Positions 323-62,846 of a stretch of DNA of 64,000 nt are shown piece after piece; within the stretch, counting starts at the first letter, position 1; the number at the start of each line of letters is the position of its first letter. The stretch comes from Sphingomonas sp. (GTDB lineage Bacteria; Pseudomonadota; Alphaproteobacteria; Sphingomonadales; Sphingomonadaceae), in assembly GCF_019746665.1 (NCBI RefSeq), contig NZ_JAIERS010000017.1:62001-126000 (forward strand). Direction: 5' to 3'. A program made the position numbers and the translations under genes. Below the pieces are notes generated by a model. The model searched no databases, was not told the origin of the DNA, and saw only the letters and a list, made by a program, of their open reading frames with translations.

Positions 323-3280
<2,958 letters not shown>

Positions 3281-60693: not shown

Positions 60694-61725
60694 TCACGCC
60701 GGCACCACCACCTGCACCGGTGGCAGCCGCCGCTCGAGCCCGCCGAGCAGCGCCACCACCCGCGCGCGCATCGTGTGCCAGAACACCGAGAGCAGCAGCA
60801 GCGCGCTGCCAATCACCAGCGCGGTGAGCGCGGCGGAAAGCTCGATCGCGCCCGCCTGGCGGAACAAAGCCGTCATCGCGTAGAGCACATAGACCAGGCT
60901 CGACACCAGCAGCGCGCGCCGATCGACCGCGAGCGCGACGAAGGCGAACAGCAGGTATAGCCCCAGTACCAGCAGCGCCTGGCCCATGCCGATTTCCTGG
61001 CCGAACACGCCCAGCAGCTGGAACACCGGATGCGCGATCAGCGGTGCGGCGGCAAGGTGCAGCCAGAAGGCGACATCGGCGCGGCGCGTGCGGCGCTCGC
61101 GGTCCGACATATCCCACCACATCGCCAGCGCGAAGGTCGCGAGCCCGCCAGACAGCGCGACCGGGTAGAGCAGCCGCTCGGCGTTCGGCATCAGCCAGCC
61201 CGCCAGTCCGAGTGCCGCGCCCACGCAGGCGATGGTGCCCGCCGCGACCGTGATCGGCACGCGGAAGCGTCGCCAGTGCAGCCCGGCCGCACCCCCGGCG
61301 AGCAGGGCAATGCCCATGCCGACGAGCGCGGCGGTGCTCTGCGGCCAATCAGGCTCGATCCGGGCGATGACCCCGATCGGCACCGCCGCTACACCGCCGA
61401 CGAAGGCGAGCAGCAGCAGGATGCTCGGCAGCGCCATGCGCCGGCGGCGGGTGAAGAACTCGGCCGCGCCCCAGCTCGCCGCCGCGACGCCCGCCCCACC
61501 GAGCCAGGGCGCCGCCTGCCAGCCGATCTGGGCGATCGCGCCGATCGCGAGCGCCAGCGCGACGCTCACGAAGATATCGTTGAAGCCGGTGAGCAGCCGG
61601 AACTGCTCTTCATCGACCGCGGGGGCGGCGCGCTGGGCCGCGATATAGTTGCGTAGCGCCGCGGCGGCGTCGGGGCTGATCACCCCCGCGCCTACCGCGG
61701 CTTCGATTTCGCCCTCGCTGTACAT
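60694..61725 (-). CDS. multispan membrane protein with DUF2157-like N-terminus
   Basis: The 343-residue product starts MYSEGEIEAAVGAGVISPDAAAAL, typical of the DUF2157 cytoplasmic start, then about nine hydrophobic helices to the end. Function unknown. In the promoter region AACACAGT occurs twice on the minus strand, 24 bp apart (61738-61745 and 61762-61769), with TGCTATA between them. A large structured palindrome stands further upstream. Confidence 0.82.
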   Translation of the reverse strand: MYSEGEIEAAVGAGVISPDAAAALRNYIAAQRAAPAVDEEQFRLLTGFNDIFVSVALALAIGAIAQIGWQAAPWLGGAGVAAASWGAAEFFTRRRRMALPSILLLLAFVGGVAAVPIGVIARIEPDWPQSTAALVGMGIALLAGGAAGLHWRRFRVPITVAAGTIACVGAALGLAGWLMPNAERLLYPVALSGGLATFALAMWWDMSDRERRTRRADVAFWLHLAAAPLIAHPVFQLLGVFGQEIGMGQALLVLGLYLLFAFVALAVDRRALLVSSLVYVLYAMTALFRQAGAIELSAALTALVIGSALLLLSVFWHTMRARVVALLGGLERRLPPVQVVVPA

Positions 61726-61796
61726 CGGCCTGCTCCCACTGTGTTGGGCAGGTATAGCACGACTGTGTTAGCGAAACAATACGCGGGGGTCAGAGG

Positions 61797-61942
61797 CCGT
61801 TTGGAAATGCGCTAGAGGCGCATTTCGCGGTTCCGGCCCGCACCCCCACCCGGCCACCCATAGAATACTACCGTTGGGTGGCCGGGTGGGGGTGCGGGCC
61901 GGAACCGCCGTGAAAAAGGCGCAGCGCGCCTTTTTCAAACGG
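61797..61942. repeat. nested palindromes forming a cloverleaf-like four-way junction
   Basis: An outer stem CCGTTTG (61797-61803) / CAAACGG (61936-61942) encloses three contiguous hairpins. A is GAAATGCGC-TAGAG-GCGCATTTC (61804-61826). B has two 34-nt arms (61827-61860 and 61875-61908) around a 14-nt loop, exact. C is GAAAAAGGCGC-AGC-GCGCCTTTTTC (61912-61936), which shares one base with the outer stem. A and C differ in bases but keep pairing, like compensatory changes. The element begins five bases after the SDR stop, and hairpin C with its A/T flanks could end that transcript. Confidence 0.8.
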
Positions 61943-61946
61943 ACTC

Positions 61947-62846
61947 TCAGCCCCCCTGGAGGTGCTTCAGAATGATCATCGACTGCTCGGCACCCGAATT
62001 GGGGACGATCTCGCCCGTTCGGTCGGTGATCGCCGCCCAATTGGCGGCGACACCCTCCGGCGACAGGTCATCGCCGGTCAGCAGCTTGCCCTGGGTGAGG
62101 GTGACGTAGGACGCCTGGAACACCCCCGCGCCCGCGCCGACGATCGCATTGGCGGGCGCATCCTCGCTCACCAGATAGAGCGCGGCCGGCACCACCTTTT
62201 CGGGGGCGAAGGCGGCGAAAGCCTCGGCGGGGAACAGGTCCTCGGTCATCCGCGTGCCCGCGACCGGAGCGATCGTGTTGACGCGGACATTATACTTCGC
62301 GCCCTCCAGATAAAGCGTCTTGGTGAGTCCCGCGAGGCCGAGCTTGGCGGCGCCGTAATTGGCCTGGCCGAAATTGCCGAACAGCCCGGTCGAGCTCGCG
62401 GTCATCAGGATGCGGCCATAGGCCTGGTCGCGCATCGTATCCCACACCGCCTTGGTGCAATTGGCCGAGCCGTTGAGATGCACGTCGATCACGAAGCGGA
62501 AATCGGCGGGCTCCATCTTGGTGAAGCTCTTGTCGCGCAGCACGCCCGCATTGTTGATCAGGATATGGACGCCGCCCCAGCGCTCCTTGGCCTTGGCGAC
62601 CATCTCGACCATCTGGTCATAGTCGGTCACCGAGCCACCGTTCGACATCGCCTCGCCGCCGAGCGCCTCGATTTCCTCGACCACTTTCAACGCGGCGTCC
62701 GAATGGCCGGTGCCGTCGCGCGCGCCGCCGAGGTCGTTGACCACCACCTTCGCGCCGCGCCGGGCAAGTTCGAGCGCATAAGCGCGCCCGAGCCCGCCGC
62801 CGGCGCCGGTGACGATGGCGACGCGGTTGTCGAAACGAATGGTCAT
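61947..62846 (-). CDS. SDR-family NAD(P)-dependent 3-hydroxyacyl-type dehydrogenase
   Basis: The 299-residue product starts at ATG 62846: MTIRFDNRVAIVTGAGGGLGRAYALELARRGAKVVVNDLGG (cofactor site), HILINNAGVLRDKSF, and the catalytic Ser and Tyr-x-x-x-Lys as SSTGLFGNFGQANYGAAKLG. The Leu-Asn-Gly loops resemble the peroxisomal multifunctional enzyme type 2 dehydrogenase domain. Its actual substrate is unknown. It is followed immediately by the structured palindrome. Confidence 0.93.
   Translation of the reverse strand: MTIRFDNRVAIVTGAGGGLGRAYALELARRGAKVVVNDLGGARDGTGHSDAALKVVEEIEALGGEAMSNGGSVTDYDQMVEMVAKAKERWGGVHILINNAGVLRDKSFTKMEPADFRFVIDVHLNGSANCTKAVWDTMRDQAYGRILMTASSTGLFGNFGQANYGAAKLGLAGLTKTLYLEGAKYNVRVNTIAPVAGTRMTEDLFPAEAFAAFAPEKVVPAALYLVSEDAPANAIVGAGAGVFQASYVTLTQGKLLTGDDLSPEGVAANWAAITDRTGEIVPNSGAEQSMIILKHLQGG

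Follow-up and report, generated by a model that had tools for sequence, protein, structure and literature searches.

MITEs of the IS5 family (IS1031 group) are short and gene-less, carry IS5-type terminal inverted repeats (TIRs) and are flanked by a 3-bp TNA target-site duplication (TSD), a rule given for the IS1031 group in the accessible part of PMC12016507. MITEs are typically AT-rich, according to the accessible part of PMC10969869. CIR sequences, found in Caulobacter and other alphaproteobacteria (Chen & Shapiro, 2003, as given in the review PMC2229807), are intergenic and about 110 bp long, with long inverted repeats; the accessible part of that review describes two arms and a linker, GANTC at the loop, no pairing of 5' and 3' ends and a duplication that is unknown. 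The GTAG/CGTC-tagged REPs are dispersed extragenic palindromes of 20-40 bp with stems of 5-13 bp, the CGTC type predominating in alphaproteobacteria; neither TIRs nor a TNA duplication are described for them in the accessible part of PMC3733652. RUP, Correia/NEMIS and ERIC are small mobile palindromes with TIRs and duplications, and RUP is tied to an IS via its TIRs. For these, the accessible part of PMC2229807 gives TA at the termini, not TNA, and does not describe three hairpins between the ends.

How does the present locus compare? The window, i.e. the whole stretch of 64,000 nucleotides of Sphingomonas sp. DNA that was analysed, contains a 154-bp unit at 61793-61946. It resembles the IS5-family MITEs in being short and gene-less and in its IS5-type TIRs and 3-bp TNA duplication, but it has three stacked hairpins, smaller size classes and frequent stop-codon sites, and it is GC-rich. 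With CIR it has in common an alphaproteobacterial host, an intergenic position, long inverted repeats and the presence of GANTC in some copies. The plan, however, is not that of two arms and a linker without end pairing: three hairpins lie between TIRs with complementary ends, and there is a TNA duplication. Nor is GANTC at the loop: in the 32 copies that bear a TSD it is found at both ends in 5, at one end at least in 14 and internally in 1, mainly as a variable part of the TIR. CIR is thereby set apart by description, not by sequence. Like the tagged REPs the element is a dispersed extragenic palindrome, and like RUP it is tied to an IS via its TIRs. Titles and abstracts on alphaproteobacterial and Caulobacter repeats, Sphingomonas MITEs and palindromes, CIR, IS1031 and REP contain no description of the element; this is weak evidence, with the subscription literature mostly outside that scope.

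The element is very probably a non-autonomous 154-bp MITE of the IS5 family and not a four-way-junction RNA, because of its TNA-flanked IS5-type ends, the other copies, the empty sites and a closing stem that lacks covariation; it is assigned to the IS1031 type because of the TNA duplication. 'MITE-like' was one of several readings offered by the first-pass annotation, and the ends, duplication, copies and empty sites make it specific. The kind is known, and what is unusual is the three-hairpin interior at the stop codon of an SDR gene. The features are as follows (window coordinates, with the strand where one applies):

61790-61792: target-site duplication, left copy TCA (TNA type), from the sequence; TSD called for the window copy, L001
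61793-61803: left terminal inverted repeat GAGGCCGTTTG, 0 mismatches to the consensus GAGNCNGTTTG; IS5-family copies bear the same end type
61804-61826: side hairpin A (GAAATGCGC...GCGCATTTC), abutting the core, from the fold; two-sided change in 4 of 10 pairs (22 copies)
61827-61860: left arm of the core palindrome, 34 bp, from the inverted repeat; two-sided change in 9 of 34 pairs
61861-61874: loop of the core palindrome, from inverted-repeat analysis
61875-61908: right arm of the core palindrome, perfect complement of the left, from inverted-repeat analysis
61912-61936: side hairpin B (GAAAAAGGCGC AGC GCGCCTTTTTC), with a 3-nt spacer before it, from the fold; two-sided change in 4 of 9 pairs
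61936-61946: right terminal inverted repeat CAAACGGACTC, from TIR pairing; its first base is common to hairpin B
61947-61949, minus strand: target-site duplication, right copy TCA, which is the TGA stop of the SDR gene, from sequence and reading frames
61947-62846, minus strand: SDR gene (adh_short), whose stop codon is the insertion target (Pfam PF00106, E 5e-47)
60694-61725, minus strand: 343-codon frame lying downstream of the SDR gene, used as the syntenic neighbour in comparing empty sites; Pfam gives no match at E <= 0.001

The locus was first described as a near gap-free cloverleaf of 146 bp, consisting of a 7-bp closing stem, two side hairpins and a perfect 34-bp inverted repeat. All these parts are present, and the junction has no gaps apart from 3 nt at 61909-61911, but 146 bp is too short, as the unit extends 4 bp further on each side (GAGG.../...ACTC). 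The two arms of the core (61827-61860/61875-61908) enclose a loop of 14 nt. The closing stem CCGTTTG/CAAACGG (61797-61803/61936-61942), when read outward across one mismatch, becomes GAGGCCGTTTG (61793-61803) paired with CAAACGGACTC (61936-61946). Alignment of the 154-bp unit with its own reverse complement shows 77% identity. Folded as RNA, positions 61780-61960 reach -145.6 kcal/mol, compared with -78.1 +/- 4.5 for 200 shuffles (z -15.0; 0 of 200 as low); the 154-bp unit folded as DNA has a z of -16.9. The cloverleaf fold is not a chance occurrence.

What, then, is the outer stem? It is the TIR of a transposon, with ends of the GAGNCNGTTTG type flanked by a 3-bp TNA duplication, here TCA, and the four-way junction therefore arises from transposon ends that flank hairpins. 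The end pattern TNAGAGNCNGTTTGGAAA is present in 26 of 201 sampled genomes of the genus, and the reversed control in none of the 201. TIR pairing in the collected loci yielded 94 raw pairs, or 54 when the best per place with at most 2 mismatches was kept. Identical 3-bp flanks are found in 32 of the 54, all of them TNA (TCA 14, TGA 8, TAA 6, TTA 4); flanks are not identical in the other 22, some of which are mis-assigned ends. TNA stands on both sides in 40 pairs and is equal in 32 of these, compared with 10.9 on average and at most 21 when shuffled 2000 times; as many loci were collected by a pattern with TNA at one end, this test rests on the other end. The target is CTNAG-like, with C before the duplication in 22 and G after it in 25 of the 32 TSD-bearing pairs. 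Sizes of these 32 copies fall into classes of 43-46 bp (6), 67-89 bp (6), 129-158 bp (17) and 162 bp (3). By eye, most members of the first three classes have one, two and three hairpins, respectively; exceptions are L146, without hairpin B, and the irregular L100 and L163. The 162-bp copies, all in genome G216, have the ends without this hairpin set.

An element of 154 bp has no room for a transposase gene, and its ends are those of autonomous insertion sequences. The genus has two full-length insertion sequences of the IS5 family that combine such ends with equal TNA duplications. One, of 904 bp (L117/L123, genome G195, 653-1556), has ends GAGTCCGTTTGG...CCAAACAGCCTC with TAA on both sides, and its L117 transposase matches PF01609 (DDE_Tnp_1), PF13340 (DUF4096) and NCBIfam NF033580 (IS5 family); the other (L125, genome G063) has GAGACCGTTTGAG ends and TTA/TTA flanks. 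The flanks of L129 (genome G120; L137 is the same place) are TGA and TTA and thus unequal. One end of this type is found on L124, L126, L134, L135 and L136, and no such end on 9 of the 19 IS loci scanned. In L117 the transposase frame (618-1493, minus strand) overruns the end of the IS into the flank, the last codons being set by the insertion site. IS5 hits (E <= 1e-30) are present in 10 of 27 genomes, all picked for carrying the element or its ends, and 5 of these 10 have a hit with such an end; partner and element are often not together. The assembly that contains the window (94.9% complete) holds no full IS5 partner, only a piece at a contig end. An IS5-family transposase acting in trans would putatively recognize ends of the GAGNCNGTTTG type and place the element in a CTNAG-like target with duplication of TNA, and we infer that the window copy was mobilized in this way. 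The target here was the TGA stop of the SDR gene; with the stop left in place by the duplication, the product is unchanged.

A search for further copies in the genome and its relatives had been proposed, and it was productive. The same genome gives 18 matches at E <= 0.1, counted by strand as several places match on both, and the window copy is included. Among them is a second near-full-length copy, 94% identical, at C21:6071-6229, and there are further partial copies. In the relatives search 18 of 61 genomes have a match, the genome of the window being one of them. Empty sites are also found. SDR relatives occur in 101 of 121 sampled genomes of the genus, and 30 loci were read; the downstream frame lies within 900 bp of the SDR gene in 13 of these, the window's included, and the element is absent from all 12 others. 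The gap between the SDR gene and its neighbour is 69-98 bp in 7 of these 12 relatives; that in the window is 221 bp, or 64 bp when the element and one TCA are subtracted. The remaining five gaps are longer, about 195-364 bp, and consist of other sequence. Two SDR loci flagged as containing the core (L190, L192) proved false when the sequence was read. Unrelated long inverted repeats lie in the same intergenic space downstream of the SDR gene at L187 and L188. Three contigs of genome G200 (C8, C9 and C30; L152, L153, L160) stop some 73-101 bases into a copy. Assembly seems to break at the long palindrome, and draft genomes may hold more copies than are counted.

Conserved pairing with changed bases had been put forward as a sign of selection for structure, to be checked by covariation. 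This was done with alignment A1, which has 22 full copies (21 of the 26 copies in the compared set, together with L102); L096 and L146 were excluded because they lack hairpin B, L143 and L151 because their core differs and L161 because no right end was found. In A1, 94.7% of cells pair, versus 90.3 +/- 0.4 when shuffled and 37-48% when partners are slid. The proposal holds for the hairpins but fails for the outer stem: two-sided change is seen in 17 of the 64 pairs of the structure, all 17 in the three hairpins, and in 0 of 11 pairs of the stem. Arm identity is higher within than between copies in the core (0.969/0.894), hairpin B (0.939/0.824) and hairpin A (0.908/0.799), whereas the arms of the closing stem, at 0.770 within a copy and 0.796 between copies, show no gain. 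The measure of further pair types in A1 is not above shuffles (298 of 500 as high). Imperfect pairs on the sense strand are 11 G-U to 8 A-C, which gives no clear sign of an RNA; L001 and L010 are shifted by one in hairpin B of A1, which adds false A-C cells. The comparison of arms indicates that the three hairpins evolve in concert and that the two sides of the closing stem behave as independent copies of a site bound by protein; it lends no support to the four-way junction as one selected fold.

Why are the hairpin arms alike? They may be kept so by hairpin-templated correction of the DNA, by selection for structure, or by both. The perfection of the palindrome might be simply a by-product of hairpin-templated copying in replication, functionless and compatible with the MITE reading, and we rate this as just short of an even chance. 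The likeness of arms within a copy agrees with it, as do A-T to T-A swaps that leave few mismatched intermediates (columns 23-65: 14 A-U, 12 U-A, 7 G-C, 1 other). So does L151 (G200:C6), where the inner core has been swapped for a different, also perfect, palindrome between the same ends; the conservation of core sequence across the class is, however, unexplained by templated copying alone. The second core type, with inner arm GGGTGAACAGCG, is intact in L151 and is found broken beside a copy in L011 (G000:C14:19395). It seems that one core type can replace another between the same ends. Relative to the side hairpins, the core loop of L097, L115 and L155 has the opposite orientation to that of L002 and L113, which suggests that the core may be able to flip.

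The position just past the SDR stop, observed at the outset, is exact: the element directly abuts the TCA that is the TGA stop on the minus strand. In 23 of the 32 TSD-bearing copies, an open frame of 100 codons or more reads into the element and has the duplication as its stop codon. By the same stop rule, 206 of the 1459 TNA sites in the flanks and 14 of their 56 CTNAG sites qualify. The frames are open frames rather than established genes, and since intragenic sites, where insertions would be lost, are among those compared, the figures reflect target choice and survival together. On a plasmid of Sphingomonas sanguinis, too, an annotated gene for a TonB-dependent receptor ends in a TAA that is directly followed by a copy; the left end of this copy is degenerate and its right end not recognized. 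Lying in 3' untranslated regions, the hairpins would act as a strong transcript end. Does the host make use of this? The core could be kept as a bidirectional transcript end (a terminator or mRNA 3' protection), with stop-codon copies retained by selection and not only tolerated, which is compatible with the MITE reading. The siting at stop codons, the A5-GGCGC...GCGCC-T5 form of hairpin B and the occurrence of the core across the class are in keeping with such a role. But the TNA preference itself favours stop codons, insertions into genes are purged, relatives manage without the element, and a terminator scan gave one site, at 61686-61700, outside the element and none inside it. Host use is thus possible but on the doubtful side, and any function of the palindromes is putative.

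Could the unit instead be a structured RNA, processed or cis-regulatory, that is selected for its fold? The strong fold (z -15.0), the covariation of the three hairpins and the placement right after a long frame in those 23 copies would fit. Against this, covariation is missing from the outer stem, the element is absent from all 12 syntenic relatives that were read, and TNA duplications flank copies that differ in size and may or may not contain the core. No sigma-70-type promoter-like site was seen in 61500-62300. The first-pass suggestion of a processed RNA also found no support in Rfam, where the 12 matches (E <= 1; miRNA, mraW, HCV CRE and others) are all below gathering scores and represent hairpin look-alikes. 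A structured RNA is therefore very unlikely. A repeat of the REP/BIME type, mobilized by a RAYT (Y1) transposase, for which only the dispersed extragenic palindrome speaks, can be dismissed as extremely improbable, given TIRs and a TNA duplication instead, a 34-bp stem against 5-13 bp in the tagged REPs as described in the accessible part of PMC3733652, and 0 matches to PF01797 (Y1) in the assembly that contains the window; as a control, PF01797 was detected in 5 of 14 named genomes.

With the element taken as an IS5/IS1031-type MITE, how far does its core reach? A covariance model of the 82-bp core, built on 34 sequences of which many were collected by a pattern fixing part of one arm, finds it in 27 of 385 sampled alphaproteobacterial genomes and 18 of 276 genera (E <= 1e-8). 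The per-genome maximum is at least 117 strand-wise matches at E <= 1e-6, in about half as many places, because the palindrome matches both strands; these counts are lower bounds, as scoring covered 150 candidates per genome. Phage records gave no match, and 3 of 72,556 plasmid records matched. In genome G251, from another family, the ends around the core are GAGACCGTTTGAGA and the duplications TGA or TCA (L213, L241, L242); the IS in L125 has the same ends. Other ends with TA duplications are found at L234 (G030, same genus) and L240 (G420, another family). A TIR scan was made of 68 further cores, drawn from named contigs, loci of the 385-genome survey and 20 places in G030, G420 and G251, Sphingomonas being among them. 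Ends were recognized in 5 (permuted mean 0.75-1.0, maximum 2-3 by threshold) and not recognized by this rule in 63. About one of the five could be there by chance, the weakest being L240 with 10 matched bases; another scoring rule, which misses L240, gives 4 of 68 (permuted mean 1.05, maximum 3). In Pelagibius (L027, L031, L043, L061, L071, L083) the core is accompanied by one TTCGAC...GTCGAA hairpin, on one side only. CTAG-like sites lie outside these copies, the outer arm bases differ between the two sides (GGAACC vs GGTGCC) and the ends are too weak for the TIR test.

The core is a candidate portable module. In its fullest form the proposal is that it spreads in Alphaproteobacteria inside different mini-transposons (TNA-type IS5 ends with differing side hairpins in two families, TA-type ends in others), stays palindromic because its arms change in concert, and comes to lie at stop codons, where it would serve as a ready-made transcript end and so render its carriers harmless and hence persistent. 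This is tentative and, taken whole, rather unlikely.

A repeat that might otherwise be mistaken for a structured RNA can thus be given a partner type, IS5/IS1031, and a TNA target that is often a stop codon, and its hairpins are seen to be modular. The case also shows that covariation can mislead when taken by itself: the hairpins within the transposon covary, while the apparent closing stem is a transposase site and does not. The wide reach of the core raises a testable question, as the same palindrome is found across a bacterial class and, in a few cases, between differing transposon ends.
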